NCBI RefSeq assembly: GCF_000003605.2
Contig: NW_003135827.1
Coordinates: 1 to 64,000 of the forward strand
From: Saccoglossus kowalevskii
Lineage: Eukaryota; Hemichordata; Enteropneusta; Harrimaniidae
Direction: 5' to 3'
DNA length: 64,000 nucleotides
Under the pieces are notes generated by a model, which searched no databases, was not told where the DNA came from, and saw only the letters and a program-made list of their open reading frames with translations. The first letter of the stretch is position 1. Each line of letters opens with the position of its first letter. Of the stretch, positions 7,341 to 64,000 are shown piece by piece. A program made the position numbers and the translations under genes.

Positions 7341-7444
7341 TTTTGCATGCAGGTAAGGTATACCTACAGACATAACTGTGGACATTATGCTTAAACTTAT
7401 GTACTAAGACGTTAGTTAACATTTAATATCAGGCAATGCATTGG
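7341..7444. repeat. Marker segment 1 (104 bp in 186-bp unit)
   Basis: After 'gacttta' (unit base 82) the standard sequence is replaced by 104 bp that starts 'ttttgcatgcaggtaaggt' and ends 'caggcaatgcattgg'. Subtype 'cttaaactta', 'ctaagacg'. It is unusual in being followed by 'ttcact' and a 'ttttgg' unit rather than 'ttcatt' and 'ctctgg'. The expected 'tacaaaacc' unit comes one monomer later (about 7640). This is the first marker in the window; none occurs in the preceding 7.3 kb. Confidence 0.95.
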
Positions 7445-9049
7445 TTCACTACCCTGGCTACACGTTAAAATGGTTATGAATTCATTTTGGATAAGTACGT
7501 ACATAACCGACCAATCGTGGACTTTAATTCTATGTGTTGGTCAGGGTTCTGACCCTGTGTATTTTTCGGTGGGTACCGTTTAATTTCACTATCCTGGCTA
7601 CGTGTTAAAATGGTTATGAATTCACTCTGGATAAGTACGTACAAAACCGACCAATCGTGGACTTTAATTCAATGTGTTGGTCAGGGTTCTGACCCTGTGT
7701 ATTTTTCGGTGGGTACCGTTTAATTTCACTATCCTGGCTATGTGTTAAAATGGTTATGAATTCATTTTGGATAAGTACGTACATAACCGACCAATCGTGG
7801 ACTTTAATTCAATGTGTTGGTCAGGGTTCTGACCCTGTGTATTTTTCGGTGGGTACCGTTTAATTTCACTACCCTGGCTACGTGTTAAAATGGTTATGAA
7901 TTCACTCTGGATAAGTATGTACATAACCGACCAATCGTGGACTTTAATTCAATGTGTTGGTCAGGGTTCTGACCCTGTGTATTTTTCGGTGGGTACCGTT
8001 TAATTTCACTATCCTGGCTACGCGTTAAAATGGTTATGAATTCATTTTGGATAAGTACGTACATAACCGACCAATCGTGGACTTTAATTCAATGTGTTGG
8101 TCAGGGTTCTGACCCTGTGTATTTTTCGGTGGGTACCGTTTAATTTCACTATCCTGGCTACGTGTTAAAATGGTTATGAATTCATTTTGGATAAGTACGT
8201 ACATAACCGACCAATCGTGGACTTTAATTCAATGTGTTGGTCAGGGTTCTGACCCTGTGTATTTTTCGGGGGGTATCGTTTAATTTCACTACCGTGGCTA
8301 CGCGTTAAAATGGTTATGAATTCATTTTGGATAAGTACGTACATAACCGACCAATCGTGGACTTTAATTCAATGTGTTGGTCAGGGTTCTGACCCTGTGT
8401 ATTTTTCGGTGGGTACCGTTTAATTTCACTACCCTGGCTACGCGTTAAAATGGTTATGAATTCATTTTGGATAAGTACGTACATAACCGACTAATCTTGG
8501 ACTTTAATTCAATGTGTTGGTCAGGGTTCTGACCCTGTGTATTTTTCGGTGGGTACCGTTTAATTTCACTGTACTGGCTACGTGTTCAAATGGTTATGAA
8601 TTCATTTTGGATAAGTACGTACATAACCGACCAATCGTGGACTTTAATTCAATGTGTTGGTCAGGGTTCTGACCCTGTGTATTTTTCAGTGGGTACCGTT
8701 TAATTTCACTACCCTGGCTACGTGTTAAAATGGTTATGAATTCATTTTGCATAAGTACGTACATAACCGACCAATCGTGGACTTTAATTCAATGTGTTGG
8801 TCAGGGTTCTGACCCTGTGTATTTTTCAGTGGGTACCGTTTAATTTCACTACCCTGGCTACGCGTTAAAATGGTTATGAATTCATTTTGGATAAGTACGT
8901 ACATAACCGACCAATCGTGGACTTTAATTCAATGTGTTGGTCAGGGTTCTGACCCTGTGTATTTTTCGGTGGGTACCGTTTAATTTCACTACCCTGGCTA
9001 CGCGTTAAAATGGTTATGAATTCATTTTGGATAAGTACGTACATAACCT

Positions 9050-9835
9050 GACCAATCTTGGACTTTATTTCAATATGTTGGTCAGGGTTCAGACCCTGTG
9101 TATTTTTCGGTGGGTACCGTTTAATTTCATTACCCTGGCTACGTGTTAAAATGGTTATGAATTCATTTTGGATAAGTACGTACATAACCGACCAATCTTG
9201 GACTTTATTTCAATATGTTGGTCAGGGTTCTGACCCTGTGTATTTTTCGGTGGGTACCGTTTAATTTCATTACCCTGGCTACGTGTTAAAATGGTTATGA
9301 ATTCACTCTGGATAAGTACGTACATAACCGACCAATCTTGGACTTTATTTCAATATGTTGGTCAGGGTTCAGACCCTGTGTATTTTTCGGTGGGTACCGT
9401 TTAATTTCATTACCCTGGCTACGTGTTAAAATGGGTCTGAAGTCACTCTGGATAAGTACGTACATAACCGACCAATCTTGGACTTTATTTCAATATGTTG
9501 GTCAGGGTTCTGACCCTGTGTATTTTTCGGTGGGTACCGTTTAATTTCATTACCCTGGCTACGTGTTAAAATGGTTATGAATTCATTTTGGATAAGTACG
9601 TACATAACCGACCAATCTTGGACTTTATATTTCAATGTGTTGGTCAGGGTTCTGACCCTGTGTATTTTTCGGTGGGTACCGTTTAATTTCATTACCCTGG
9701 CTACGTGTTAAATGGTTATGAATTCATTTTGGATAAGTACGTACATAACCGACCAATCTTGGGACTTTATTTCAATATGTTGGTCAGGGTTCTGACCCTT
9801 GTGTAATTTTTCGGTGGGTACCGTTTAATTTCACT
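9050..9835. repeat. Type A satellite block
   Basis: Five to six consecutive monomers with 'caatcttgg', 'ctttatttcaatatg' and 'ttcattaccctgg', sharply bounded by type B units. It repeats rare variants of the 1-3080 block: 'gggttcagacc' at about 9088 and 9368, 'gggtctgaagtcactctgg' at about 9433, and 'ctttatatttcaatg' at 9623 (compare 1601). This looks like a segment copied from, or sharing a source with, the first block. Confidence 0.9.
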
Positions 9836-10191
9836 ATCCTGGCTACGTGTTAAAATGGTTATGAATTCATTTTGGATAAGTACGTACATAACCGACCAAT
9901 CGTGGACTTTAATTCAATGTGTTGGTCAGGGTTCTGACCCTGTGTATTTTTCGGTGGGTACCGTTTAATTTCACTACCCTGGCTACGCGTTAAAATGGTT
10001 ATGAATTCATTTTGGATAAGTACGTACATAACCGACCAATCGTGGACTTTAATTCAATGTGTTGGTCAGGGTTCTGACCCTGTGTATTTTTCGGTGGGTA
10101 CCGTTTAATTTCACTACCCTGGCTACGTGTTAAAATGGTTATGAATTCATTTTGCATAAGTACGTACATAACCGACCAATCGTGGACTTTA

Positions 10192-10295
10192 TTTTGCATG
10201 CAGGTAAGGTATACCTACAGACATAACTGTGGACATTATGCTTAAACTTATGTACTAAGACGTTAGTTAACATTTAATATCAGGCAATGCATTGG
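10192..10295. repeat. Marker segment 2 (reference copy)
   Basis: Clean 104-bp copy used as reference. Perfect palindromes: 'tgcatgca' at 10195-10202, 'aggtatacct' at 10207-10216, 'caatgcattg' at 10285-10294, plus 'gttaac'. The distance from 'atgaattca' of this unit to that of the next is 186 bp (10141 to 10327). Subtype 'cttaaactta'. It is followed by 'ctctgg', 'tgtgtaattttcgg', 'tacaaaacc' and 'ctttaatccaatg' variants that recur after the marker at 21938. Confidence 0.97.
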
Positions 10296-13200
10296 TTCAT
10301 TACCCTGGCTACGTGTTAAAATGGTTATGAATTCACTCTGGATAAGTACGTACATAACCGACCAATCGTGGACTTTAATTCAATGTGTTGGTCAGGGTTC
10401 TGACCCTGTGTAATTTTCGGTGGGTACCGTTTAATTTCACTATCCTGGCTACGTGTTAAAATGGTTATGAATTCACTCTGGATAAGTACGTACAAAACCG
10501 ACCAATCGTGGACTTTAATCCAATGTGTTGGTCAGGGTTCTGACCCTGTGTATTTTTCGGTGGGTACCGTTTAATCTCACTACCCTGGCTACGCGTTAAA
10601 ATGGTTATGACTTCATTTTGGATAAGTACGTACATAACCGACCAATCGTGGACTTTAATTCAATGTGTTGGTCAGGGTTCTGACCCTGTGTATTTTTCGG
10701 TGGGTACCGTTTAATTTCACTATCCTGGCTACGTGTTAAAATGGTTATGAATTCATTTTGGATAAGTACGTACATAACCGACCAATCATGGACTTTAATT
10801 CAATGTGTTGGTCAGGGTTCTGACCCTGTGTATTTTTCGGTGGGTACCGTTTAATTTCACTACCCTGGCTCCGCATTAAAATGGTTATGAATTCATTTTG
10901 GATAAGTACGTACATAACCGACCAATTGTGGACTTTAATTCAATGTGTTGGTCAGGGTTCTGACCCTGTGTATTTTTCGGTGGGTACCGTTTAATTTCAC
11001 TACCCTGGCTACGCGTTAAAATGGTTATGAATTCATTTTGGATAAGTACGTACATAACCGACCAATCGTGGACTTTAATTCAATGTGTTGGTCAGTGTTC
11101 TGACCCTGTGTATTTTTCGGTGGGTACCGTTTAATTTCACTACCCTGGCTACGCGTTAAAATGGTTATGAATTCATTTTGGATAAATACGTACATAACCG
11201 ACCAATCGTGGACTTTAATTCAATATGTTGGTCAGGGTTCTGACCCTGTGTATTTTTCGGTGGGTACCGTTTAATTTCACTACCCTGGCTACACGTTAAA
11301 ATGGTTATGAATTCATTTCGGATAAGTACGTACATAACCGACCAATCGTGGAATTTAATTCTATGTGTTGGTCAGGGTTCTGACCCTGTGTATTTTTCGG
11401 TGGGTACCGTTTAATTTCACTACCCTGGCCACGCGTTAAAATGGTTATGAATTCATTTTGGATAAGTACGTACATAACCGACCAATCGTGGACTTTAATT
11501 CAATGTGTTGGTCAGGGTTCTGACCCTGTGTATTTTTCGGTGGGTACCGTTTAATTTCACTACCCTGGCTACGCGTTAAAATGGTTATGAATTCATTTTG
11601 GATAAGTACGTACATAACCGACCAATCGTGGACTTTAATTCAATGTGTTGGTCAGGGTTCTGACCCTGTGTATTTTTCGGTGGGTACCGTTTAATTTCAC
11701 TATCCTGGCTACGTGTTAAAATGGTTATGAATTCATTTTGGATAAGTACGTACATAACCGACCAATCGTGGACTTTAATTCAATGTGTTGGTCAGGGTTC
11801 TGACCCTGTATATTATTCGGTGGGTACCGTTTAATCTCACTACCCTGGCTACGCGTTGAAATGGTTATGAATTCATTATGGATAAGTACGTACATAACCG
11901 ACCAATCGAGGACTTTAATTCAATGTGTTGGTCAGGGTTCTGACCCTGTGTATTTTTTGGTGGGTACTGTTTAATTTCACTATCCTGGCTACGTGTTAAA
12001 ATGGTTATGAATTCACTCTGGATAAGTACGTACATAACCGACCAATCGTGGACTTTAATTCAATGTGTTGGTCAGGGTTCTGACCCTGTGTATTTTTCGG
12101 TGGGTACCGTTTAATTTCACTATCCTGGCTACGTGTTAAAATGGTTATGAATTCACTCTGGATAAGTACGTACAAAAGCGACCAATCGTGGACTTTAATT
12201 CAATGTGTTGGTCAGGGTTCTGACCCTGTGTATTTTTCGGTGGGTACCGTTTAATTTCACTATCCTGGCTATGTGTTAAAATGGTTATGAATTCATTTTG
12301 GATAAGTACGTACATAACCGACCAATCGTGGACTTTAATTCAATGTGTTGGTCAGGGTTCTGACCCTGTGTATTTTTCGGTGGGTACCGTTTAATTTCAC
12401 TACCCTGGCTATGCGTTAAAATGGTTATGAATTCATTTTGGATAAGTACGTACATAACCGACCAATCGTGGACTTTAATTCAATGTGTTGGTCAGGGTTC
12501 TGACCCTGTGTATTTTTCGGTGGGTACCGTTTAATCTCACTACCCTGGCTACGCGTTAACATGGTTATGACTTCATTTTGGATAAGTACGTACATAACCG
12601 ACCAATCGTGGACTTTAATTCAATGTGTTGGTCAGGGTTCTGACCCTGTGTATTTTTTGGTCGCTACCGTTTAATTTCACTATCCTGGCTACGTGTTAAA
12701 ATGGTTATGAATTCATTTTGGATAAGTACGTACATAACCGACCAATCGTGGACTTTAATTCAATGTGTTGGTCAGGGTTCTGACCCTGTGTATTTTTCGG
12801 TGGGTACCGTTTAATTTCACTACCCTGGCTATGCGTTAAAATGGTTATGAATTCATTTTGGATAAGTACGTACATAACCGACCAATCGTGGACTTTAATT
12901 CAATGTGTTGGTCAGGGTTCTGACCCTGTGTATTTTTCGGTGGGTACCGTTTAATTTCACTACCCTGGCTACGCGTTAAAATGGTTATGAATTCATTTTG
13001 AATAAGTACGTACATAACCGACCAATCGTGGACTTTAATTCAGTGTGTTGGTCAGGATTCTGACCCTGTGTATTTTTTGGTGGGTACCGTTTAATTTCAC
13101 TATCCTGGCTACGTGTTAAAATGGTTATGAATTCATTTTGGATAAGTACGTACATAACCGACCAATCGTGGACTTTAATTCAATGTGTTGGTCAGGGTTC

Positions 13201-13457
13201 TGACCCTGTGTATTTTTCGATGGGTACCGTTTAATTTCACTACCCTGGCTACGTGTTAAAATGGTTATGAATTCATTTTGGATAAGTACGTACATAACCG
13301 ACCAATCGTGGACTTTAATTCAATGTGTTGGTCAGGGTTCTGACCCTGTGTATTTTTCGGTGGGTACCGTTTAATTTCACTACCCTGGCTACGTGTTAAA
13401 ATGGTTATGAATTCATTTTGCATAAGTACGTACATAACCGACCAATCGTGGACTTTA

Positions 13458-13561
13458 TTTTGCATGCAGGTAAGGTATACCTACAGACATATCTGTGGAC
13501 ATTATGCTTAAACTTATGTACTAAGACGTTAGTTAACATTTAATATCAGGCAATGCATTGG
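13458..13561. repeat. Marker segment 3
   Basis: Subtype 'cttaaactta', with one private change ('catatctg' for 'cataactg'). It is followed directly by the 'ctctgg' plus 'tacaaaacc' unit, so one monomer of the usual downstream series is missing. Then come 'tatgtg', 'tatgcg', 'taatctcac' with 'gacttcatttt', and 'caattgtgg'. It lies 23 units after the previous marker (3266 bp, an exact whole-monomer multiple). Confidence 0.95.
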
Positions 13562-16304
13562 TTCATTACCCTGGCTACGTGTTAAAATGGTTATGAATTC
13601 ACTCTGGATAAGTACGTACAAAACCGACCAATCGTGGACTTTAATTCAATGTGTTGGTCAGGGTTCTGACCCTGTGTATTTTTCGGTGGGTACCGTTTAA
13701 TTTCACTATCCTGGCTATGTGTTAAAATGGTTATGAATTCATTTTGGATAAGTACGTACATAACCGACCAATCGTGGACTTTAATTCAATGTGTTGGTCA
13801 GGGTTCTGACCCTGTGTATTTTTCGGTGGGTACCGTTTAATTTCACTACCCTGGCTATGCGTTAAAATGGTTATGAATTCATTTTGGATAAGTACGTACA
13901 TAACCGACCAATCGTGGACTTTAATTCAATGTGTTGGTCAGGGTTCTGACCCTGTGTATTTTTCGGTGGGTACCGTTTAATCTCACTATCCTGGCTACGC
14001 GTTAAAATGGTTATGACTTCATTTTGGATAAGTACGTACATAACCGACCAATTGTGGACTTTAATTCAATGTGTTGGTCAGGGTTCTGACCCTGTGTATT
14101 TTTTCGGTGGGTACCGTTTAATTTCACTATCCTGGCTACGCGTTAAAATGGTTATGAATTCATTTTGGATAAGTACGTACATAACCGACCAATCTTGGAC
14201 TTTAATTCAATGTGTTGGTCAGGGTTCTGACCCTGTGTATTTTTCGGTGGGTACCGTTTAATTTCACTACCCTGGCTACGCGTTAAAATGGTTATGAATT
14301 CATTTTGGATAAGTTCGTACATAACCGACCAATCGTGGACTTTAATTCAATGTGCTGGTCAGGGTTCTGACCCTGTGTATTTTTCGGTGGGTACTGTTTA
14401 TTTTCACTACCCTGGCTACGCGTTAAAATGGTTATGAATTCATTTTGGATAAGTACGTACATAACCGACCAATCGTGGACTTTAATTCAATGTGTTGGTC
14501 AGGGTTCTGACCCTGTGTATTTTTCGGTGGGTACCGTTTAATTTCACTACCCTGGCTACGCGTTAAAATGGTTATGAATTCATTTTGGATAAGTACGTAC
14601 ATAACCGACCAATCGTGGACTTTAATTCAATGTGTTGGTCAGGGTTCTGATCCTGTGTATTTTTCGGTGGGTACCGTTTAATTTCACTACCCTGGCTACG
14701 CGTTAAAATGGTTATGAATTCATTTTGGATAAGTACGTACATAACCGACCAATCGTGGACTTTAATTCAATGTGTTGGTCAGGGTTCTGACCCTGTGTAT
14801 TTTTCGGTGGGTACCGTTTAATTTCACTACCCTGGCTACGCGTTAAAATGGTTATGAATTCATTTTGGATAAGTACGTACATAACCGACCAATCGTGGAC
14901 TTTAATTCAATGTGTTGGTCAGGGTTCTGACCCTGTGTATTTTTCGGTGGGTACCGTTTAATTTCACTACCCTGGCTACGTGTTAAAATGGTTATGAATT
15001 CATTTTGCATAAGTACGTACATAACCGACCAATCGTGGACTTTAATTCAATGTGTTGGTCAGGGTTCTGACCCTGTGTATTTTTCGGTGGGTACCGTTTA
15101 ATTTCACTACCCTGGCTACGTGTTAAAATGGTTATGAATTCATTTTGGATAAGTACGTACATAACCGACCAATTGTGGACTTTAATTCAATGTGTTGGTC
15201 AGGGTTCTGACCCTGTGTATTTTTCGGTGGGTACCGTTTAATTTCACTATCCTGGCTACGTGTTAAAATGGTTATGAATTCATTTTGGATAAGTACGTAC
15301 ATAACCGACCAATCGTGGACTTTAATTCAATGTGTTGGTCAGGGTTCTGACCCTGTGTATTTTTCGGTGGGTACCGTTTAATTTCACTATCCTGGCCACG
15401 CGTTAAAATGGTTATGAATTCATTTTGGATAAGTTCGTACATAACCGACCAATCGTGGACTTTAATTCAATGTGTTGGTCAGGGTTCTGACCCTGTGTAT
15501 TTTTCGGTGGGTACTGTTTAATTTCACTACCCTGGCTACGCGTTAAAATGGTTATGAATTCATTTTGGATAAGTACGTACATAACCGACCAATCGTGGAC
15601 TTTAATTCAATGTGTTGGTCAGGGTTCTGACCCTGTGTATTTTTCGGTGGGTACCGTTTAATTTCACTACACTGGCTACGTGTTAAAATGGTTATGAATT
15701 CATTTTGCATAAGTACGTACATAACCGACCAATCGTGGACTTTAATTCAATGTGTTGGTCAGGGTTCTGACCCTGTGTATTTTTCGGTGGGTACCGGTTA
15801 ATTTCACTACCCTGGCTACGTGTTAAAATGGTTATGAATTCATTTTGGATAAGTACGTACATAACCGACCAATCGTGGACTTTAATTCAATGTGTTGGTC
15901 AGGGTTCTGACCCTGTGTATTTTTCGGTGGGTACCGTTTAATTTCACTACCCTGGCTATGTGTTAAAATGGTTATGAATACATTTTGCATTAGTACGTAC
16001 ATAACCGACCAATCGTGGACTTTAATTCAATGTGTTGGTCAGGGTTCTGACCCTGTATATTTTTCGGTGGGTACCGTTTAATTTCACTACCCTGGCTACG
16101 TGTTAAAATGGTTATGAATTCATTTTGGATAAGTACGTACATGACCGACCAATCGTGGACTTTAATTCAATGTGTTGGTCAGGGTTCTGACCCTGTGTAT
16201 TTTTCGGTGCGTACCGTTTAATTTCACTACCCTGGCTACAAGTTAAAATGGTTATGAATTCATTTTGCATAAGTACGTACATAACCGACCAATCGTGGGC
16301 TTTA

Positions 16305-16408
16305 TTTTGCATGCGGGTAAGGTATACCTACAGACATAACTGTGGACATTATGCTTATACTTATGTACTAAGACGTTAGTTAACATTTAATATCAGGCAA
16401 TGCATTGG
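16305..16408. repeat. Marker segment 4
   Basis: Subtype 'cttatactta', with private change 'gcatgcggg' for 'gcatgcagg'. The standard part has 'gtgggcttta' for 'gtggacttta', a change shared with the markers at 40270 and 56977. The next unit reads 'gaatacactctgg'. No 'tacaaaacc' unit follows. Confidence 0.95.
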
Positions 16409-18420
16409 TTCATTACCCTGGCTACGTGTTAAAATGGTTATGAATACACTCTGGATAAGTACGTACATAACCGACCAATCGTGGACTTTAATTCAATGTG
16501 TTGGTCAGGGTTCTGACCCTGTGTATTTTTCCGTGGGTACCGTTTAATTTCACTATCCTGGCTACGTGTTAAAATGGTTATGAATTCATTTTGGATAAGT
16601 ACGTACATAACCGACCAATCGTGGACTTTAATTCAATGTGTTGGTCAGGGTTCTGACCCTGTGTATTTTTTCGGTGGGTACCGTTTAATTTCACTATCCT
16701 GGCTACGTGTTAAAATGGTTATGAATTCATTTTGCATAAGTACGTACATAACCGACCAATCGTGGACTTTAATTCAATGTGTTGGTCAGGGTTCTGACCC
16801 TGTGTATTTTTCGGTGGGTACCGTTTAATTTCACTACCCTGGCTACGCGTTAAAATGGTTATGAATTCATTTTGGATAAGTACGTACATAACCGACCAAT
16901 CGTGGACTTTAATTCAATGTGTTGGTCAGGGTTCTGACCCTGTGTATTTTTCGGTGGGTACCATTTAATTTCACTACCCTGGCTACGTGTTAAAATGGTT
17001 ATGAATTCATTTTGGATAAGTACGTACATAACCGACCAATCGTGGACTTTAATTCAATGTGTTGGTCATGGTTCTGACCCTGTGTATTTTTCGGTGGGTA
17101 CCGTTTAATTTCACTACCCTGACTACGTGTAAAATGGTTATACATTCATTTGCATAAGTACGTACATGACGACCAATCGTGACTTTATCATGTGTTGTTC
17201 AGGTTCTGACCCTGTGTATTTTCGTGGGTACCGTTTAATTTCACTACCCTGGCTATGCGTTAAAATGGTTATGAATTCATTTTGGATAAGTACGTACATA
17301 CCGATCAATCGTGGACTTTAATTCAATGTGTTGTCAGGGTTCTGACCCTGTGTATTTTTCGGTGGGTACCGTTAATCTCACTATCCTGGCTACGCGTTAA
17401 AATGGTTATGACTTCATTTTGGATAAGTACGTACATAACCGACCAATTGTGGACTTTAATTCAATGTGTTGGTCAGGGTTCTGACCCTGTGTATTTTTTC
17501 GGTGGGTACCGTTTAATTTCACTATCCTGGCTACGCGTTAAAATGGTTATGACTTCATTTTGGATAAGTACGTACATAACCGACCAATCGTGGACTTTAA
17601 TTCAATGTGTTGGTCAGGGTTCTGACCCTGTGTATTTTTCGGTGGGTACCGTTTAATTTCACTATCCTGGCTACTTGTTAAAATGGTTATGAATTCATTT
17701 TGGATAAGTACGTACATAACCGACCAATCATGGACTTTAATTCAATGTGTTGGTCAGGGTTCTGACCCTGTGTATTTTTCGGTGGGTACCGTTTAATTTC
17801 ACTACCCTGGCTACGCGTTAAAATGGTTATGAATTCATTTTGGATAAGTACGTACATAACCGACCAATCGTGGACTTTAATTCAATGTGTTGGTCAGGGT
17901 TCTGACCCTGTGTATTTTTCGGTGGGTACCGTTTAATTTCACTACCCTGGCTATGCGTTAAAATGGTTATGAATTCATTTTGGATAAGTACGTACATAAC
18001 CGACCAATCGTGGACTTTAATTCAATGTGTTGGTCAGGGTTCTGACCCTGTGTATTTTTCGGTGGGTACCGTTTAATTTCACTACCCTGGCTACGCGTTA
18101 AAATGGTTATGAATTCATTTTGGATAAATACGTACATAACCGACCAATCGTGGACTTTAATTTAATATGTTGGTCAGGGTTCTGACCCTGTGTATTTTTC
18201 GGTGGGTACCGTTTAATTTCACTACCCTGGCTACGCGTTAAAATGGTTATGAATTCATTTTGGATAAGTACGTACATAACCGACCAATCGTGGACATTAA
18301 TTCAATGTGTTGGTCAGGGTTCTGACCCTGTGTATTTTTCGGTGGGTACCGTTTAATTTCACTACCCTGGCTACGTGTTATAATGGTTATGAATTCATTT
18401 TGGATAAGTACGTACATAAC

Positions 18421-50471: not shown

Positions 50472-50571
50472 TTTTGCATGCAGTAAGTATACCTACAGAC
50501 ATAACTGTGGACATTATGCTTAAACTTATGTACTAAGACGTTAGTTAACATTTATATCAGCTATGCATTGG
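50472..50571. repeat. Marker segment 17, shortened by small deletions
   Basis: Subtype 'cttaaactta'. Several bases are missing ('cagtaagtatacc' for 'caggtaaggtatacc', and losses near the right end), leaving 100 bp and breaking two of the palindromes. The following 200 bp is also full of one-base losses, so sequencing error is likely. It is the only 'aaac' subtype copy without a 'tacaaaacc' unit downstream. Confidence 0.9.
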
Positions 50572-51430: not shown

Positions 51431-52240
51431 TCATTTTGGATATTAAGTACGTACATAACCGACCAATCTTGGACTTTATTTCAATGTGTTGGTCAGGGTT
51501 CTGACCCTGTGTATTTTTCGGTGGGTACCGTTTAATTTCACTACCCTGGCTACGCGTTAAAATGGTTATGAATTCATTTTGGATAAGTACGTACATAACC
51601 GACCAATCTTGGACTTTAATTCAATGTGTTGGTCAGGGTTCTGACCCTGTGTATTTTTCGGTGGGTACCGTTTAATTTCACTACCCTGGCTACGTGTTAA
51701 AATGGCTATGAATTCACTCTGGATAAGTACGTACATAACCGACCAATCGTGGACTTTAATTCAATGTGTTGGTCAGGGTTCTGACCCTGTGTATTTTTCG
51801 GTGGGTACCGTTTAATTTCACTACCCTGGCTACGTGTTAAAATGGTTATGAATTCATTTTGGATAAGTACGTACATAACCGACCAATCTTGGACTTTATT
51901 TCAATGTGTTGGTCAGGGTTCTGACCCTGTGTATTTTTCGGTGGGTACCGTTTAATTTCACTACCCTGGCTACGCGTTAAAATGGTTATGAATTCATTTT
52001 GGATATTAAGTACGTACATAACCGACCAATCTTGGACTTTATTTCAATGTGTTGGTCAGGGTTCTGACCCTGTGTATTTTTCGGTGGGTACCGTTTAATT
52101 TCACTACCCTGGCTACGCGTTAAAATGGTTATGAATTCATTTTGGATAAGTACGTACATAACCGACCAATCTTGGACTTTAATTCAATGTGTTGGTCAGG
52201 GTTCTGACCCTGTGTATTTTTCGGTGGGTACCGTTTAACT
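51431..52240. repeat. Mixed A/B satellite block
   Basis: About six monomers in which 'cttggactttatttcaatg' recurs 420 bp apart (about 51470 and 51890), the same three-monomer rhythm as 18.4-20.7 kb. Two units have the 3-bp insertion giving 'ggatattaagtacg' (about 51440 and 52001). The right end, including the rare 'gtttaacttcac' at about 52233, matches the first 330 bp of the window. Confidence 0.85.
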
Positions 52241-53329
52241 TCACTACCCTGGCTACGCGTTAAAATGGTTATGAATTCATTTTGGATAGTACGTACATAA
52301 CCGACCAATCGTGGACTTTAATTCATGTGTTGGTCAGGGTTCTGACCCTGTGTATTTTTCGGTGGGTACCGTTTAATTTCACTACCCTGGCTAAGCGTTA
52401 AAATGGTTATGAATTCATTTTGGATAAGTACGTACATAACCGACCAATCGTGGACATTAATTCAATGTGTTGGTCAGGGTTCTGACCCTGTGTATTTTTC
52501 GGTGGGTACCGTTTAATTTCACTATCCTGGCTACGTGTTAAAATGGTTATGAATTCATTTTGGATAAGTACGTACATAACCGACCAATAGTGGACTTTAA
52601 TTCAATGTGTTGGTCAGGGTTCTGACCCTGTGTATTTTTCGGTGGGTACCGTTTAATTTCACTATCCTGGCTACGTGTTAAAATGGTTATGAATTCATTT
52701 TGGATAAGTATGTACATAACCGACCAATCGTGGACTTTAATTCAATGTGTTGGTCAGGGTTCTGACCCTGTGTATTTTTCGGTGGGTACCGTTTAATTTC
52801 ACTATCCTGGCTACGTGTTAAAATGGTTATGAATTCATTTTGGATAAGTACGTACATAACCGACCAATCGTGGACTTTAATTCAATGTGTTGGTCAGGGT
52901 TCTGACCCTGTGTATTTTTCGGTGGGTACCGTTTAATTTCACTACCCTGGCTATGCGTTAAAATGGTTATGAATTCATTTTGGATAAGTACGTACATAAC
53001 CGACCAATCGTGGACTTTAATTCAATGTGTTGGTCAGGGTTCTGACCCTGTGTATTTTTCGGTGGGTACCGTTTAATTTCACTATCCTGGCTACGTGTTA
53101 AAATGGTTATGAATTCATTTTGGATAAGTACGTACATAACCGACCAATCGTGGACTTTAATTCAATGTGTTGGTCAGGGTTCTGACCCTGTGTATTTTTC
53201 GGTGGGTACCGTTTAATTTCACTACCCTGGCTACGCGTTAAAATGGTTATGAATTCATTTTGGATAAGTACGTACATAACCGACCAATCGTGGACTTTAA
53301 TTCAATGTGTTGGTCAGGGTTCTGACCCA

Positions 53330-54084
53330 GTGTATTTTTCGGTGGGTACCGTTTAATTTCACTACCCTGGCTACGTGTTAAAATGGTTATGAATTCATTT
53401 TGCATAAGTACGTACATAACCGACCAATCGTGGACTTTATTTCAATGTGTTGGTCAGGGTTCTGACCCTGTGTATTTTTCGGTGGGTACCGTTTAATTTC
53501 ACTACCCTGGCTACGCGTTAAAATGGTTATGAATTCATTTTGGATAAGTACGTACATAACCGACCAATCGTGGACTTTAATTCAATGTGTTGGTCAGGGT
53601 TCTGACCCTGTGTATTTTTCGGTGGGTACCGTTTAATTTCACTACCCTGGCTACGCGTTAAAATGGTTATGAATTCATTTTGGATAAGTACGTACATAAC
53701 CGACCAATCGTGGACTTTAATTCAATGTGTTGGTCAGGGTTCTGACCCTGTGTATTTTTCGGTGGGTACCGTTTAATTTCACTACCCTGGCTACGTGTTA
53801 AAATGGTTATGAATTCATTTTGCATAAGTACGTACATAACCGACCAATCGTGGACTTTATTTCAATGTGTTGGTCAGGGTTCTGACCCTGTGTATTTTTC
53901 GGTGGGTACCGTTTAATTTCACTACCCTGGCTACGCGTTAAAATGGTTATGAATTCATTTTGGATAAGTACGTACATAACCGACCAATCGTGGACTTTAA
54001 TTCAATGTGTTGGTCAGGGTTCTGACCCTGTGTATTTTTCGGTGGGTACCGTTTAATTTCACTACCCTGGCTACGCGTTAAAAT
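53330..54084. repeat. 420-bp three-monomer duplication
   Basis: The bases from about 53331 to 53664 are repeated without a difference I can see 420 bp downstream, including the unusual combination 'cgtggactttatttcaatg' with 'ttttgcataag'. A single added G near 54085 marks the end of exact identity. Confidence 0.9.
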
Positions 54085-54700
54085 GGGTTATGAATTCATT
54101 TTGGATAAGTACGTACATAACCGACCAATCGTGGACTTTAATTCAATGTGTTGGTCAGGGTTCTGACCCTGTGTATTTTTCGGTGTGTACCGTTTAATTT
54201 CACTATCCTGGCTACGCGTTAAAATGGTTATGAATTCATTTTGGATAAGTACGTACATAACCGACCAATCGTGGACTTTAATTCAATGTGTTGGTCAGGG
54301 TTCTGACCCTGTGTATTTTTCGGTGGGTACCGTTTAATTTCACTATCCTGGCTACGTGTAAAAATGGTTATGAATTCATTTTGGATAAGTACGTACATAA
54401 CCGACCAATCGTGGACTTTAATTCAATGTGTTGGTCAGGGTTCTGACCCTGTGTATTTTTCGGTGGGTACCGTTTAATTTCACTACCCTGGCTACATGTT
54501 AAAATGGTTATGAATTCATTTTGGATAAGTACGTACATAACCGACCAATCGTGGACTTTAATTCAATGTGTTGGTCAGGGTTCTGACCCTGTGTATTTTT
54601 CGGTGGGTACCGTTTAATTTCACTACCCTGGCTACGTGTTAAAATGGTTATGAATTCATTTTGCATAAGTACGTACATAACCGACCAATCGTGGACTTTA

Positions 54701-54804
54701 TTTTGCATGCAGGTAAGGTATACCTAAAGAAATAACTGTGGACATTATGCTTATACTTATGTACTATGACGTTAGTTAACATTTAATATCAGGCAATGCA
54801 TTGG
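54701..54804. repeat. Marker segment 18
   Basis: Subtype 'cttatactta' with 'ctatgacg' and private 'ctaaagaaataactg'. Followed by 'taccctagctacttg' and 'ctctgaataag'. Confidence 0.95.
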
Positions 54805-55840
54805 TTCATTACCCTAGCTACTTGTTAAAATGGTTATGAATTCACTCTGAATAAGTACGTACATAACCGACCAATCGTGGACTTTAATTCAATGTGTTGG
54901 TCAGGGTTCTGACCCTGTGTATTTTTCGGTGGGTACCGTTTAATTTCACTATCCTGGCTACGTGTTAAAATGGTTATGAATTCATTTTGGATAAGTACGT
55001 ACATAACCGACCAATCGTGGACTTTAATTCAATGTGTTGGTCAGGGTTCTGACCCTGTGTATTTTTCGGTGGGTACCGTTTAATTTCACTACCCTGGCTA
55101 TGCGTTAAAATGGTTATGAATTCATTTTGGATAAGTACGTACATAACCGACCAATCGTGGACTTTAATTCAATGTGTTGGTCAGGGTTCTGACCCTGTGT
55201 ATTTTTCGGTGGGTACCGTTTAATTTCACTATCCTGGCTACGTGTTAAAATGGTTATGAATTCATTTTGGATAAGTACGTACATAACCGACCAATCGTGG
55301 ACTTTAATTCAGTGTGTTGGTCAGGGTTCTGACCCTGTGTATTTTTCGGTGGGTACCGTTTAATCTCACTACCCTGGCTACTCGTTAAAATGGTTATGAA
55401 TTCATTTTGGATAAGTACGTACATAACCGACCAATCATGGACTTTAATTCAATGTGTTGGTCAGGGTTCTGACCCTGTGTATTTTTCGGTGGGTACCATT
55501 TAATTTCACTACCCTGGCTACGCGTTAAAATGGTTATGAATTCATTTTGGATAAGTACGTACATAACCGACCAATCGTGGACTTTAATTCAATGTGTTGG
55601 TCAGGATTCTGACCCTGTGTATTTTTCGGTGGGTACCGTTTAATTTCACTACCCTGGCCACGCGTTAAAATGGTTATGAATTCATTTTGGATAAGTACGT
55701 ACATAACCGACCAATCGTGGACTTTAATTCAATGTGTTGGTCAGGTTCTGACCCTGTGTATTTTCGTGGGTACCGTTTATTTCACTACCCTGGCTACGCG
55801 TTAAAATGGTTATGATTCATTTTGGATAAGTACGTACATA

Positions 55841-56300
55841 ACCGACCAATCATGGACTTTATTTCAATATGTTGGTCAGGGTCTAACCCTGTGCATTTTT
55901 CAGTGGGTACCGTTTAATTTCATTACCCTGGCTACGTGTTAAAATGGTTATGAATTCATTTTGGATAAGTACGTACATAACCGACCAATCTTGGACTTTA
56001 ATTCAATGTGTTGGTCAGGGTTCTGACCCTGTGCATTTTTCGGTGGGTACCGTTTAATTTCACTACCCTGGCTACGTGTTAAAATGGTTATGAATTCATT
56101 TTGGATAAGTACGTACATAACCGACCAATCTTGGACTTTAATTCAATGTGTTGGTCAGGGTTCTGACCCTGTGCATTTTTCAGTGGGTACCGTTTAATTT
56201 CACTACCCTGGCTACGTGTTAAAATGGTTATGAATTCATTTTGGATAAGTACGTACATAACCGACCAATCTTGGACTTTAATTCAATGTGTTGGTCAGGG
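55841..56300. repeat. Type A block duplicated from the 18.4 kb region
   Basis: Monomers with 'caatcttgg' and with 'ctaaccctgtgcattttt', 'ctgtgcatttttcgg' and 'ctgtgcatttttcagtgg' in the same order as 18.42-18.80 kb. The last three landmarks compared lie at a constant offset of 37421 bp. The block is followed by a 278-bp two-monomer tandem duplication. Confidence 0.88.
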
Positions 56301-56760
56301 TTCTGACCCTGTGTATTTTTCGGTGGGTACCGTAATTTCACTACCCTGGCTACGCATTAAAATGGTTATGAATTCATTTTGGATAAGTACGTACATAACC
56401 GACCAATCGTGGACTTTAATTCAATGTGTTGGTCAGGGTTCTGACCCTGTGTATTTTTCAGTGGGTACCGTTTAATTTCACTACCCTGGCTACGTGTTAA
56501 AATGGTTATGAATTCATTTTGGATAAGTACGTACATAACCGACCAATCGTGGACTTTAATTCAATGTGTTGGTCAGGGTTCTGACCCTGTGTATTTTTCG
56601 GTGGGTACCGTAATTTCACTACCCTGGCTACGCATTAAAATGGTTATGAATTCATTTTGGATAAGTACGTACATAACCGACCAATCGTGGACTTTAATTC
56701 AATGTGTTGGTCAGGGTTCTGACCCTGTGTATTTTTCAGTGGGTACCGTTTAATTTCACT
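56224..56760. repeat. 278-bp two-monomer duplication
   Basis: A dimer carrying a 2-bp deletion ('gtaccgtaatttc'), 'ctacgcattaaaa' and 'tttttcagtggg' is present twice in tandem, 278 bp apart. The shared private deletion makes independent origin unlikely. The first monomer of copy one is type A ('cttgg') while that of copy two is type B ('cgtgg'). Confidence 0.88.
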
Positions 56761-56976
56761 ACCCTCGCTACGTGTTAAAATGGTTATGAATTCATTTTGG
56801 ATAAGTATGTACATAACCGACCAATCGTGGGCTTTAATTCAATGTGTTGGTCAGGGTTCTGACCCTGTGTATTTTTCAGTGGGTACCGTTTAATTTCACT
56901 ACCCTGGCTACGTGTTAAAATGGTTATGAATTCATTTTGCATAAGTACGTACATAACCGACCAATCGTGGGCTTTA

Positions 56977-57080
56977 TTTTGCATGCAGGTAAGGTATACC
57001 TACAGACATAACTGTGGACATTATGCTTATACTTATGTACTAAGACGTTAGTTAACATTTAATATCAGGCAATGCATTGG
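56977..57080. repeat. Marker segment 19
   Basis: Subtype 'cttatactta', standard part with 'gggcttta'. Followed by 'ctctgaataag', 'ctctgg', 'tttgcataag' with 'caatcatgg', 'tttgcataag', then 'tttgcatgag', close to the series after 28377. Confidence 0.95.
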
Positions 57081-59960
57081 TTCATTACCCTGGCTACGTG
57101 TTAAAATGGTTATGAATTCACTCTGAATAAGTACGTACATAACCGACCAATCGTGGACTTTAATTCAATGTGTTGGTCAGGGTTCTGACCCTGTGTATTT
57201 TTCGGTGGGTACCGTTTAATTTCACTATCCTGGCTACGTGTTAAAATGGTTATGAATTCACTCTGGATAAGTACGTACATAACCGACCAATCGTGGACTT
57301 TAATTCAATGTGTTGGTCAGGGTTCTGACCCTGTGTATTTTTCGGTGGGTACCGTTTAATTTCACTACCCTGGCTACGTGTTAAAATGGTTATGAATTCA
57401 TTTTGCATAAGTACGTACATAACCGACCAATCATGGACTTTAATTCAATGTGTTGGTCAGGGTTCTGACCCTGTGTATTTTTCGGTGGGTACCGTTTAAT
57501 TTCACTACCCTGGCTACGTGTTAAAATGGTTATGAATTCATTTTGCATAAGTACGTACATAACCGACCAATCGTGGACTTTAATTCAATGTGTTGGTCAG
57601 GGTTCTGACCCTGTGTATTTTTCGGTGGGTACCGTTTAATTTCACTACCCTGGCTACGTGTTAAAATGGTTATGAATTCATTTTGCATGAGTACGTACAT
57701 AACCGACCAATCGTGGACTTTAATTCAATGTGTTGGTCAGGGTTCTGACCCTGTGTATTTTTCGGTGGGTACCGTTTAATTTCACTATCCTGGCTACGTG
57801 TTAAAATGGTTATGAATTCATTTTGGATAAGTACGTACATAACCGACCAATCGTGAACTTTAATTCAATGTGTTGGTCAGGGTTCTGACCCTGTGTATTT
57901 TTCGGTGGGTACCGTTTAATTTCACTACCCTGGCTACGCGTTAAAATGGTTATGAATTCATTTTGGATAAGTACGTACATAACCGACCAATCGTGGACTT
58001 TAATTCAATGTGATGGTCAGGGTTCTGACCCTGTGTATTTTTCGGTGGGTACCGTTTAATTTCACTACCCTGGCTACGCGTTAAAATGGTTATGAATTCA
58101 TTTTGGATAAGTACGTACATAACCGACCAATCGTGGACTTTAATTCAATGTGTTGGTCAGGGTTCTGACCCTGTGTATTTTTCGGTGGGTACCGTTTAAT
58201 TTCACTATCCTGGCTACGTGTTAAAATGGTTATGAATTCATTTTGGATAAGTACGTACATAACCGACCAATCGTGGACTTTAATTCAATTAGTTGGTCAG
58301 GGTTCTGACCCTGTGTATTTTTCGGTGGGTACCGTTTAATTTCACTATCCTGGCTACGTGTTAAAATGGTTATGAATTCATTTTGGATAAGTACGTACAT
58401 AACCGACCAATCGTGGACTTTAATTCAATGTGTTGGTCAGGGTTCTGACCCTGTGTATTTTTCGGTGGGTACCGTTTAATTTCACTACCCTGGCTACGCG
58501 TTAAAATGGTTATGAATTCATTTTGGATAAGTACGTACATAACCGACCAATCGTGGACTTTAATTCAATGTGTTGGTCAGGGTTCTGACCCTGTGTATTT
58601 TTCGGTGGGTACCGTTTAATTTCACTATCCTGGCTATGTGTTAAAATGGTTATGAATTCATTTTGGATAAGTACGTACATAACCGACCAATCGTGGACTT
58701 TAATTCAATGTGTTGGTCTGGGTTCTGACCCTGTGTATTTTTCGGTGGGTACCGTTTAATTTCACTACCCTGGCTACGTGTTAAAATGGTTATGAATTCA
58801 TTTTGGATAAGTACGTACATAACCGACCAATCGTGGACTTTAATTCAATGTGTTGGTCAGGGTTCTGACCCTGTGTATTTTTCGGTGGGTACCGTTTAAT
58901 TTCACTACCCTGGCTACGCGTTAAAATGGTTATGAATTCATTTTGGATAAATACGTTCATAACCGACCAATCGTGGACTTTAATTCAATGTGTTGGTCAG
59001 GGTTCTGACCCTGTGTATTTTTCGGTGGGTACCGTTTAATTTCACTACCCTGGCTACGCGTTAAAATGGTTATGAATTCATTTTGGATAAGTACGTACAT
59101 AACCGACCAATCGTGGACTTTAATTCAATGTGTTGGTCAGGGTCTGACCCTGTGTATTTTCGGTGAGTACCGTTTAATTTCACTACCCTGGCTACACGTT
59201 AAAATGGTTATGAATTCATTTTGGATAAGTACGTACATAACCGACCAATCGTGGACTTTAATTCAATGTGTTGGTCAGGGTTCTGACCCTGTGTAATTTT
59301 CGGTGGGTACTGTTTAATTTCACTACCCTGGCTACGCGTTAAAATGGTTATGAATTCATTTTGGATAAGTACGTACATAACCGACCAATCGTGGACTTTA
59401 ATTCAATGTGTTGGTCAGGATTCTGACCCTGTGTATTTTTCGGTGGGTACCGTTTAATTTCACTACCCTGGCTACGTGTTAAAATGGTTATGAATTCATT
59501 TTGGATAAGTACGTACATAACCGACCAATCGTGGACTTTAATTCAATGTGTTGGTCAGGGTTCTGACCCTGTGTATTTTTCGGTGGGTACCGTTTAATTT
59601 CACTACCCTGGCTACGCGTTAAAATGGTTATGTATTCATTTTGGATAAGTACGTACATAACCGACCAATCGTGGACTTTAATTCAATGTGTTGGTCAGGG
59701 TTCTGACCCTGTGTATTTTTTGGTGGGTACCGTTTAATTTCACTATCCTGGCTACGTGTTAAAATGGTTATGAATTCATTTTGGATAAGTACGTACATAA
59801 CCGACCAATCGTGGACTTTAATTCAATGTGTTGGTCAGGGTTCTGACCCTGTGTATTTTTCGGTGGGTACCGTTTAATTTCACTATCCTGGCTACGTGTT
59901 AAAATGGTTATGAATTCATTTTGCATAAGTACGTACATAACCGACCAATCGTGGACTTTA

Positions 59961-60064
59961 TTTTGCATGCAGGTAAGGTATACCTACAGACATAACTGTG
60001 GACATTATGCTTATACTTATGTACTAAGACGTTAGTTAACATTTAATATCAGGCAATGCATTGG
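59961..60064. repeat. Marker segment 20
   Basis: Subtype 'cttatactta'. The next unit has 'tggctaagtg', 'ctctgaataag' and 'accgcccaatcg'. About 21 units after the previous marker. Confidence 0.95.
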
Positions 60065-60514
60065 TTCATTACCCTGGCTAAGTGTTAAAATGGTTATGAA
60101 TTCACTCTGAATAAGTACGTACATAACCGCCCAATCGTGGACTTTAATTTAATGTGTTGGTCAGGGTTCTGACCCTGTGTATTTTTCGGTGGGTACTGTT
60201 TAATTTCACTATCCTGGCTACGTGTTAAAATGGTTATGAATTCATTTTGGATAAGTACGTACATAACCGACCAATCGTGGACTTTAATTCAATGTGTTGG
60301 TCAGGGTTCTGACCCTGTGTATTTTTCGGTGGGTACTGTTTAATTTCACTACCCTGGCTACGCGTTAAAATGGTTATGAATTCATTTTGGATAAGTACGT
60401 ACATAACCGACCAATCGTGGACTTTAATTCAATGTGTTGGTCAGGGTTCTGACCCTGTGTATTTTTCGTGGGTACCGTTTAATTTCACTACCTGGCTACG
60501 TGTTAAAATGGTTA

Positions 60515-61830
60515 TGAATTCACTCTGGATAAGTACGTACATAACCGACCAATCTTGGACTTTCAATTCAATGTGTTGGTCAGGGTTCTGACCCTGTGTA
60601 TTTTTCGGTGGGTACCGTTTAATTTCACTATCCTGGCTACGTGTTAAAATGGTTATGAATTCACTCTGGATAAGTACGTACATAACCGACCAATCTTGGA
60701 CTTTCATTCAATGTGTTGGTCAGGGTTCTGACCCTGTGTATTTTTCGGTGGGTACCGTTGAATTTCACTATCCTGGCTACGTGTTAAAATGGTTATGAAT
60801 TCACTCTGGATAAGTACGTACATAACCGACCAATCTTGGACTTTAATTCAATGTGTTGGTCAGGGTTCTGACCCTGTGTATTTTTCGATGGGTACCGTTT
60901 AATTTCACTATCCTGGCTATGTGTTAAAATGGTTATGAATTCACTCTGGATAAGTACGTACATAACCGACCAATCTTGGACTTTAATTCAATGTGTTGGT
61001 CAGGGTTCTGACCTTGTGTATTTTTTGGTGGGTACCGTTTAATTTCACTATCCTGGCTACGTGTTAAAATGGTTATGAATTCACTCTGGATAAGTACGTA
61101 CATAACCGACCAATCTTGGATTTTCATTCAATGTGTTGGTCAGGGTTCTGACCCTGTGTATTTTTCGGTGGGTACCATTTAATTTCACTATCCTGGCTAC
61201 GTGTTAAAATGGTTATGAATTCACTCTGGATAAGTACGTACATAACCGACCAATCTTGGACTTTAATTCAATGTGTTGGTCAGGGTTCTGACCTTGTGTA
61301 TTTTTCGGTGGGTACCGTTTAATTTCACTATCCTGGCTACGTGTTAAAATGGTTATGAATTCACTCTGGATAAGTACGTACATAACCGACCAATCTTGGA
61401 CTTTAATTCAATGTGTTGGTCAGGGTTCTGACCCTGTGTATTTTTCGGTGGGTACCGTTTAATTTCACTATCCTGGCTACGTGTTAAAATGGTTATGAAT
61501 TCACTCTGGATAAGTACGTACATAACCGACCAATCTTGGACTTTCATTCAATGTGTTGGTCAGGGTTCTGACCCTGTGTAATTTTCGATGGGTACCGTTT
61601 AATTTCACTATCCTGGCTATGTGTTAAAATGGTTATGAATTCACTCTGGATAAGTACGTACATAACCGACCAATCTTGGACTTTAATTCAATGTGTTGGT
61701 CAGGGTTCTGACCTTGTGTATTTTTTGGTGGGTACCGTTTAATTTCACTATCCTGGCTACGTGTTAAAATGGTTATGAATTCACTCTGGATAAATACGTA
61801 CATAACCGACCAATCTTGTATTTTCATTCA
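60515..61830. repeat. A-like 'cactctgg' block with 700-bp (five-monomer) period
   Basis: A homogeneous run of about nine monomers with 'ttcactctgg' and 'caatcttgg', many with 'ctttcattcaatg', a form not seen elsewhere in the window. Variants 'tcgatggg' (60887, 61587), 'tggctatgtg' (60914, 61614), 'cttgtgtattttttgg' (about 61012, 61712) and 'gtaccattt' (about 61170, 61870) recur 700 bp apart, showing a recent five-monomer tandem duplication. Confidence 0.88.
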
Positions 61831-64000
61831 ATGTGTTGGTCAGGGTTATGACCCTGCGTATTTTTCGGTGGGTACCATTTAATTTCACTATCCTGGCTAC
61901 GTGTTAAAATGGTTATGAATTCACTCTGAATAAGTACGTACATAACCGACCAATCGTGGACTTTAATTCAATGTGTTGGTCAGGGTTCTGACCCTGTGTA
62001 TTTTTCGGTGGGTACCATTTAATTTCACTACCCTGGCTACGTGTTAAAATGGTTATGAATTCATTTTGGATAAGTACGTACATAACCGACCAATCGTGGA
62101 CTTTAATTCAATGTGTTGGTCAGGGTTCTGACCCTGTGTATTTTTCGGTGGGTACCGTTTAATTTCACTACCCTGGCTACGTGTTAAAATGGTTATGAAT
62201 TCATTTTGCATAAGTACGTACATAACCGACCAATCGTGGACTTTATTTTGCATGCAGGTAAGGTATACCTACAGACATAACTGTGGACATTATGCTTAAA
62301 CTTATGTACTAAGACGTTAGTTAACATTTAATATCAGGCAATGCATTGGTTCATTACCCTGGCTACGTGTTAAAATGGTTATGAATTCACTCTGGATAAG
62401 TACGTACATAACCGACCAATCGTGGACTTTAATTCAATGTGTTGGTCAGGGTTCTGACCCTGTGTATTTTTCGGTGGGTACTGTTTAATTTCACTATCCT
62501 GGCTACGTGTTAAAATGGTTATGAATTCACTCTGGATAAGTACGTACAAAACCGACCAATCATGGACTTTAATTCAATGTGTTGGTCAGGGTTCTGACCC
62601 TGTGTATTTTTCGGTGGGTACCGTTTAATTTCACTATCCTGGCTATGTGTTAAAATGGTTATGAATTCATTTTGGATAAGTACGTACATAACCGACCAAT
62701 CGTGGACTTTAATTCAATGTGTTGGTCAGGGTTCTGACCCTGTGTATTTTTCGGTGGGTACCGTTTAATTTCACTACCCTGGCTATGCGTTAAAATGGTT
62801 ATGAATTCATTTTGGATAAGTACGTACATAACCGACCAATCGTGGACTTTAATTCAATGTGTTGGTCAGGGTTCTGACCCTGTGTATTTTTCGGTGGGTA
62901 CCGTTTAATCTCACTATCCTGGCTACGCGTTAAAATGGTTATGACTTCATTTTGGATAAGTACGTACATAACCGACCAATTGTGGACTTTAATTCAATGT
63001 GTTGGTCAGGGTTCTGACCCTGTGTATTTTTCGGTGGGTACCATTTAATTTCACTATCCTGGCTACGTGTTAAAATGGTTATGAATTCATTTTGGATAAG
63101 TACGTACATAACCGACCAATCATGGACTTTAATTCAATGTGTTGGTCAGGATTCTGACCCTGTGTATTTTTCGGTGGGTACCGTTTAATTTCACTATCCT
63201 GGCTACGTGTTAAAATGGTTATGAATTCATTTTGGATAAGTACGTACATAACCGACCAATCGTGGACTTTAATTCAATGTGTTGGTCAGGGTTCTGACCC
63301 TGTGTATTTTTCGGTGGGTACCGTTTAATTTCACTACCCTGGCTACGTGTTAAAATGGTTATGAATTCATTTTGGATAAGTACGTACATAACCGACCAAT
63401 CGTGGACTTTAATTCAATGTGTTGGTCAGGGTTCTGACCCTGTGTATTTTTCGGTGGGTACCGTTTAATTTCACTATCCTGGCTATGTGTTAAAATGGTT
63501 ATGAATTCACTCTGGATAAGTACGTACATAACCGACCAATCGTGGACTTTAATTCAATGTGTTGGTCAGGGTTCTGACCCTGTGTATTTTTCGGTGGGTA
63601 CCGTTTAATTTCACTATCCTGGCTACGTGTTAAAATGGTTATGAATTCATTTTGGATAAGTACATACATAACCGACCAATCGTTGACTTTAATTCAATGT
63701 GTTGGTCAGGGTTCTGACCCTGTGTATTTTTCGGTGGGTACCGTTTAATTTCACTACCCTGGCTACGCGTTAAAATGGTTATGAATTCATTTTGGATAAG
63801 TACGTACATAACCGACCAATCGTGGACTTTAATTCAATGTGTTGGTCAGGGTTCTGACCCTGTGTATTTTTCGGTGGGTACCGTTTAATTTCACTACCCT
63901 GGCTACGCGTTAAAATGGTTATGAATTCATTTTGGATAAGTACGTACATAACCGACCAATCATGGACTTTAATTCAATGTGTTGGTCAGGGTTCTGACCC
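61831..64000. repeat. Type B satellite block at the right edge
   Basis: About 15 units of type B with one marker segment at 62246-62349. It is followed by the full post-marker haplotype ('ctctgg', 'ctctgg' plus 'tacaaaacc', 'tatgtg', 'tatgcg', 'taatctcac' with 'gacttcatttt', 'caattgtgg'). The window ends inside a monomer at unit base 111. Confidence 0.9.
62246..62349. repeat. Marker segment 21
   Basis: Subtype 'cttaaactta', last marker in the window. Followed by the full downstream haplotype with 'tacaaaacc', 'tatgtg', 'tatgcg', 'taatctcac', 'gacttcatttt' and 'caattgtgg'. About 16 units after the previous marker. Confidence 0.95.

Follow-up and report, generated by a model that had tools for sequence, protein, structure and literature searches.

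We analysed a 64,000-bp stretch of the hemichordate Saccoglossus kowalevskii genome (assembly GCF_000003605.2, contig NW_003135827.1, positions 1 to 64,000 of the forward strand; hereafter the window), which is filled by a 140-bp satellite in which a 104-bp segment replaces the last part of the monomer in 21 long units. The explanation that we favour, with a probability of about 0.6, is that this segment is the fused boundary of two satellite blocks, a scar at the point where a second repeat, S, was lost between neighbouring blocks of a type that we term E. Block E has the form L-(140 bp)n-R, with its last repeat cut at base 82, and R (45 bp plus the junction base) and L (58 bp) are the two parts into which the segment splits elsewhere in the genome. 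Wherever copies were read, the single point of contact between S and E lies at the position that in the window is the middle of the 104-bp segment. A first-pass annotation of this DNA had regarded the segment as one embedded element; it has proved to be two block ends, which meet where the dispersed repeat S sits on other contigs.

Block E and its contacts with S

We searched the 572-Mb assembly, which comprises 4830 contigs; for six of those discussed here (C2164, C3133, C3197, C865, C971 and C1205) the reading covered part of the sequence. The layout of contig C3203 is (TA)n-S-(E-S)9-(TA)n-host DNA, with 10 copies of S and nine E blocks. Its unit, present nine times, consists of S (1176 bp), L (58 bp), 2-5 full monomers, the 82-bp part and R (46 bp with its last base), and the array both starts and ends with S inside TA runs, with host DNA beyond on the right. 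The same contacts are found on further contigs. The window's own contig, C2783, ends on the right as R-S: it leaves the satellite at segment base 46, and its last 79 bp are 98.7% identical to the first part of S. On C1205 the change into the satellite falls at segment base 47, after a flank that matches the end of S at 99.8% over 423 bp; this contig has an S-L contact at its one end and an R-S contact at the opposite one and looks, from the ends read, like one long E block between two copies of S.

When the fused joint was excluded from the search pattern, the start of S followed the R end in 11 of 11 cases, to which a more diverged R end on C3203, read directly, adds one more, and the end of S preceded the L end in 10 of 10. 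With a pattern that also excluded S-L there were 0 exact matches; every L end that we found lies beside R or S, and E has been seen only in arrays or between copies of S. The R and L ends form imperfect inverted repeats (11 of 16 positions match, P 0.006 against shuffled arms); no solitary copy of E was encountered. On C2164 an R end with approximately the first 17 bp of S is followed by another repeat, which has the ends GTCCCCGTTCGGAC.. and ..GAACGGGGAC and internal tandem repeats, and is apparently a different, nested element.

Repeat S

Among the 40 scored of 164 candidates, S gave 43 matches on C3203 and 29 other contigs, and on three contigs it lies in two adjacent pieces, as internal deletions would give. 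Neither R, L nor monomer is present in 20 flanks of S at 13 sites or in either flank of the full copy on C3696. Clear TA runs border S in 7 of the 10 flanks read on its left and 8 of the 10 on its right, on both sides of the C3696 copy and at both ends of the C3203 array; dispersed copies, precise ends and TA-run flanks are the traits of a repeat that targets TA runs. Because it occurs on many contigs between such flanks, holds no open reading frame (ORF) above 105 aa (an autonomous relative was not sought) and has no Rfam or tRNA match, S is, to judge from its sequence, a dispersed non-coding repeat with mobile-element features. Its last 70 nt fold no better than shuffles.

The segment in the window

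A BLAST search of the window with the first copy returned 21 full-length matches between 7341 and 62349, all on the + strand and each with an expectation value of 2e-39 or better, at exactly the coordinates first proposed for them. In 21 of 21 long units monomer bases 83-140 are replaced by the segment after base 82, as had been described: the 5' neighbour is always monomer base 82 (..CTTTA) and the 3' neighbour monomer base 1 (TTCA; TTCT once). Transposon fragments inserted independently at different phases, which the first-pass annotation had named as the observation that would speak against it, are not what we see, all copies being at one phase. Twenty segments measure 104 bp and one, the copy at 50472 in an indel-rich patch, 100 bp; the long units accordingly measure 186 bp (n=19), 187 bp (n=1) or 182 bp (n=1). 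Identity to the first copy is 95.2-100%, with 7 of the 21 identical. The features are as follows.

1..64000, + strand: 140-bp satellite array of contig C2783; 450 unit starts, 428 standard and 21 long units delimited
7258..7340, + strand: standard part ahead of segment 1 (monomer bases 1-82; one extra base, 46C variant)
7341..7385, + strand: R end of block E, first copy (core 45 bp, ends ..GTGGACAT)
7386..7386, + strand: junction base T, scar position
7387..7444, + strand: L end of block E, first copy (58 bp, ATGCTT..CATTGG)
7445..7584, + strand: first monomer after L, first copy; without C5T, T41C and T43C
R/L fusion segments located by BLAST, all on the + strand:
7341..7444, +: segment 1
10192..10295, +: segment 2
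13458..13561, +: segment 3
16305..16408, +: segment 4
21938..22041, +: segment 5
22964..23067, +: segment 6
24131..24234, +: segment 7
28377..28480, +: segment 8
31362..31465, +: segment 9
33088..33191, +: segment 10
35087..35190, +: segment 11
36953..37056, +: segment 12
38119..38222, +: segment 13
40270..40373, +: segment 14
43392..43495, +: segment 15
45668..45771, +: segment 16
50472..50571, +: segment 17 (100 bp, indel-rich patch)
54701..54804, +: segment 18
56977..57080, +: segment 19
59961..60064, +: segment 20
62246..62349, +: segment 21

Fused units and their junctions across the genome

The segment is not confined to the window: a search beyond it, as the first-pass annotation had advised, gave 25 further copies (one truncated) on the remainder of C2783 and 16 matches (one partial) on C3588. 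A 25-mer from the first half of the segment and a 33-mer from the second half each had 152 genome matches at up to three mismatches, against 0 for either reversed control. Outside C2783, fusions of this kind occur on no fewer than five contigs (C3588, C865, C971, C3133 and C3197).

The bases at the fusion point, between ..GTGGACAT and ATGCTT.., differ by contig. The junction search required exact arms and 100 of its 114 matches are listed, such that other junction forms may exist; among the matches listed the junction is T on C2783 (25 of 25), TT on C865 (32 of 32) and C3133 (15 of 15), A on C3197 (6 of 6), and AA (12) or AATT (10) on C971, and it is also T on C3588. There are hence five junction forms at one exact point, while elsewhere in the segment only a few bases distinguish the contigs that were read. 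The R ends, in addition, fall into two allele classes: the S-bearing R end of C2783 carries GGTATACC, as do the 43 fused units of this contig, and GGTATACC was otherwise seen only on C3588, whereas the other S-bearing R ends read carry GGTACACC. Contacts with S and fusions are both present in both classes. Separate losses of S are the reading with the fewest assumptions, because the junction bases are contig-specific and both alleles occur among S-bearing as well as fused ends.

The arrays also differ in layout. On C865 and on C3133 two long units stand immediately next to each other; these two contigs also have 821 bp in common, at 98.2% identity, and may be duplicated or allelic. The C971 array is much denser, with fused joints every 2-9 units and its AA and AATT junctions interleaved.

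Spread of the long unit within the array

The pairwise identity of the segments in the window is 0.980 and that of the monomers 0.960-0.976; the segment is not a fresh insertion, because it is about as diverse as the monomers. Its immediate neighbourhood carries linked variants. In the long unit's own monomer 46C is found in 17 of 21 copies, against 36 of 428 standard units; in the next unit after the segment C5T is found in 20 of 21, against 9% of standard units, and T41C/T43C in 19 of 21, against 15%; in the second unit C8T has a frequency of 76%, against 30%. Farther out and upstream linkage is weak and most offsets look random, with a small excess at +6 units (7 of 300 random sets as high) and a weak similarity over +3 to +12 units taken together (P 0.023). 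Exact flanks common to copies extend at most 237 bp to the left and 199 bp to the right. The segments include two haplotypes, which are interleaved in the window array. Short-tract copying over long distances fits these shared flanks and interleaved haplotypes better than local tandem duplication does.

The start of the end monomer after the segment, TTCATTACC (the C5T variant), is also that of the first monomer after L where L lies beside S, in 7 of 7 cases on C3203 and the 1 case on C1205. The earlier proposal of a single origin followed by array turnover stands within the C2783 array, where the junction base is identical in the 43 segments caught by the junction pattern (of 45 complete) and flank variants are linked; it does not hold overall, in view of the five junction forms.

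Spacing and sequence of the segment

Copies in the window are spaced more evenly than at random (coefficient of variation, CV, 0.457, P 0.00012), with no two within 6 units of each other (P 0.0012). Even spacing is seen also on the remainder of C2783 (CV 0.66, P 0.029) and strongly on C971 (23 copies, CV 0.357, 0 of 20,000 random sets). The copies are uneven on C3588 (CV 1.0, P 0.73), C865 (33 copies, CV 0.91, P 0.48) and C3133 (15 among the matches listed, CV 0.81, P 0.34), and C865 and C3133 hold copies one unit apart. None of 23 satellite variants reaches the short-range sparseness of the segment, and 7 of them are more clustered than in any of 1000 random placements. Simple simulations of conversion and of unequal exchange (the latter at two settings) gave such spacing rarely or never; simulations with protected long units that set out from an even start reach it readily. 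Besides conversion and unequal exchange, a relic higher-order unit was weighed as a possible source of the spacing.

The segment had been called palindrome-rich, which is borne out as a modest excess of long palindromes: 2 perfect palindromes of at least 10 bp against 0.18 expected (P 0.01) and 3 of at least 8 bp against 0.68 (P 0.033). There is no such excess at 6 bp and above (4 against 2.5, P 0.24). Of the two longest, AGGTATACCT is disrupted on 7 of 8 other contigs read, where a T has become C, and is intact on C3588. The CENP-B box, with the motif TTCGNNNNANNCGGG, shows no excess, with 810 matches at up to three mismatches against 1022 expected. No signal of stable secondary structure was obtained on folding the segment, Rfam and tRNA scans gave no match, and scans of IMG/VR (with segment and monomer as queries), phages, plasmids and GTDB contigs gave no useful match.

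The statement that the segment bears no resemblance to the monomer holds for alignments of the whole segment, where 163, 372 and 560 of 1000 shuffles did as well under three scorings on the + strand, and nhmmer reported no match between the two. It needs qualifying for the halves, each of which weakly resembles monomer bases 39-87, with P from 0.0007 to 0.32 across the tests tried on a region chosen post hoc. That the segment is a diverged tandem copy of monomer bases 39-87 is at most suggested by this post hoc likeness; the two halves show no similarity to each other.

Origin of the fused units

In the scenario that we favour, excision or deletion would have removed S from between adjacent E blocks and left 1-4 A/T bases behind, as independent events in several lineages of arrays. 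Together with the end monomers beside it, the scarred unit may then have been copied through the array by homologous recombination, be it conversion, unequal exchange or reintegrated circles, as the blocks grew from the 2-5 full repeats seen on C3203 to the 5-56 between scars on C2783. Recombination of S-E circles with a dispersed S in (TA)n might likewise have given rise to C3203. The scenario calls for no function of the segment itself, and the arrays on this account carry the scars of a former or intermittent repeat partner.

Several points weigh against this scenario. No single locus with S and S-free alleles was available for comparison, and one entry of S into a pre-existing R/L would produce identical boundaries. 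Among the 100 of 114 matches listed, the exact joint without S, ..ACATTAATGC.., does not appear; slippage could alter the junction, which is a short run of A/T, and on C971 the junction has two forms. The patterns for unfused ends allowed three mismatches and every match used all three, so that more diverged unfused ends would be missed. The TTCATTACC monomers occur in the window away from L too. The inverted ends of S are only weak, so that excision as the mechanism is something we infer, and a target duplication of S is not definable in TA runs.

The converse order of events is one that we think possible but somewhat doubtful: the segment could be an original, continuous part of a rare long monomer, with S inserted later in its TA-rich centre and the S-bearing units then amplified, as on C3203. 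Such an insertion would agree with the dispersal of S with precise ends, mostly in TA runs, with the A/T-rich centre of the segment (CATTATG), with S-E boundaries that in all copies read are alike, as from one insertion, and with the restriction of E to arrays or to places between S copies. It has to accommodate five fusion sequences, distributed by contig, at exactly the point of the supposed insertion when the remaining segment differs by few bases, as well as the two allele classes of S-bearing R ends and the S copies inside TA runs that border the C3203 array on both sides. It is improbable, in our view, that E is itself mobile, its terminal inverted repeats being L and R and the R/L fusion being the head-to-tail joint of tandem copies or circles. 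The imperfect inverted ends, the sequence CATAA/TTATG of the AATT form on C971 and the likeness of an array inside two specific flanks to Cg_HINE (PMC7492417) and Tetris (PMC4079207) would suit such an element; against it are the lack of any L end found away from R or S, with all 10 unfused L ends beside S, and the fact that no target duplication was seen.

A role as a spaced functional landmark, that is, a binding or nucleation site under selection for its spacing, as raised by the first-pass annotation, appears very unlikely. It could draw on the even spacing in the window, the remainder of C2783 and C971, on a sparseness at short range exceeding that of all 23 satellite variants, and on the failure of simple exchange simulations to match it other than rarely. 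However, C3588, C865 and C3133 are not regular, two of them having copies at a distance of one unit; local evenness could stem from block lengths passed on in amplification; and one main palindrome is not conserved, no stable fold is apparent and CENP-B boxes are not in excess. The evenness of C971 leaves the odds of the readings unchanged, because three of five arrays are not even. As for the long units being assembly artefacts, some units of the window do have dense indels typical of unpolished long reads, including the one that holds copy 17, but indels are as frequent near segments as in the background (0.365 against 0.360 per unit). A plain artefact is scarcely credible because the fused units recur on at least five further contigs, where they show contig-specific differences.

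Beyond the loss of S between E blocks, we tentatively advance a wider proposal, which the odds do not yet favour: a composite mobile unit S-E-S, which inserts into (TA)n in the form [S-E]n-S, may have the 140-bp satellite as its internal repeat. Long arrays would arise when S is shed between E blocks at one and the same point, on five or more separate occasions, and the E repeats would then be free to expand. If this is true, each array carries its own scar of release from the element. The passage of element-borne repeats into free satellite arrays has so far been deduced mostly from kinship between sequences. The present genome combines blocks with S between them (C3203), an apparent long S-bounded block (C1205) and large fused arrays (C2783, C865, C971). 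A readable fusion scar makes the order of events testable across haplotypes or sister species, and the functional reading of the segment, tempting as it is but poorly supported, is removed.

Comparison with known systems

A hairpin near the 3' end is a feature of Helentrons and HINEs; S shows no stable fold at its 3' end. The features of a HINE, as far as they were compared, are not found here: no dispersed E was recovered, every L end found being by R or S, and S lies in TA runs at most of the flanks read and not at oligo-T. The overall set-up resembles element-borne repeats turned satellites (PMC7492417, PMC4079207) and co-amplified element-satellite blocks (PMC4857426). The Cg_HINE elements of oyster are satellite-carrying, non-autonomous Helentrons that insert at oligo-T (PMC7492417). 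They share with the present system repeats of 140-180 bp between two specific flanks, a constant orientation and the occurrence of some of the repeats as classical satellites; E, in contrast, was not found dispersed, and the dispersed S lies outside the repeats, in TA runs rather than oligo-T. The 220-bp repeats of the Tetris foldback transposon of Drosophila virilis likewise expand from the element to long arrays with element ends interspersed (PMC4079207). The Tetris flank has a stretch in common with its repeat, where we have only a weak, post hoc resemblance, and its inverted repeats are long, where ours are short and imperfect and accompanied by a separate repeat S (PMC4079207).

Composite satellites of Meloidogyne also have part of the monomer swapped for apparently unrelated sequence at fixed junctions (PMC3694981), but those junctions bear conserved CENP-B-box-like motifs, of which there is no excess here, and the foreign part in our case consists of the block ends around S. 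In rye, tandem repeats and adjacent transposable elements have been co-amplified, which implies recombination between element copies (PMC4857426); the Saccoglossus case differs in involving one repeat at one fixed site, with fused sites that have contig-specific scars. S lies mostly inside TA runs in the manner of MuTAnT, transposons that target TA microsatellites (PMC4486113), although S has no ORF above 105 aa. The network of satellite-transposable element junctions in molluscs displays similarly abrupt transitions, with parts of monomers excised and replaced (PMC5139131); here, by contrast, the transition point is fixed in the copies read, and there are many copies on both kinds of contig. 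Six strings of the satellite sequence that we sought in the texts of papers were not found in them; other literature was judged mostly by title or abstract, and a published description is possible.

Other features of the satellite array

The window comprises bases 1-64000 of C2783, a contig of 140,959 bp of which monomer or segment covers 99.9%. Its 449 delimited units, 428 standard and 21 long, form a long head-to-tail array of near-identical, non-coding units, as is characteristic of satellite DNA, and the standard units have a mean identity of 0.979 to the monomer consensus (n=428). All 21 ORFs of at least 70 aa in the window, the longest of 124 aa, are reading frames of the repeat. The regular period of a higher-order repeat of the alpha-satellite type is not seen: gaps between segments vary from 7 to 40 units in the window, and divergence plotted against lag shows no marked dip at any one long lag. 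There are some duplicated blocks at other lags, and some residual order between the segment intervals.

Dense patches of small indels, which resemble unpolished long-read consensus, occur at 1946, 6988-7260, 17110-17370, 33892-34170, 39483, 42334, 44613 and 50390-50830, segment 17 sitting in the last of these. Runs of units with the variant 73T, at 124-3063, 8985-9829, 18358-20736, 51394-52239 and 60484-61883, mark separately amplified sub-arrays; the first two also carry 83T and 90A, and long units are present in 0 of the 5 runs.

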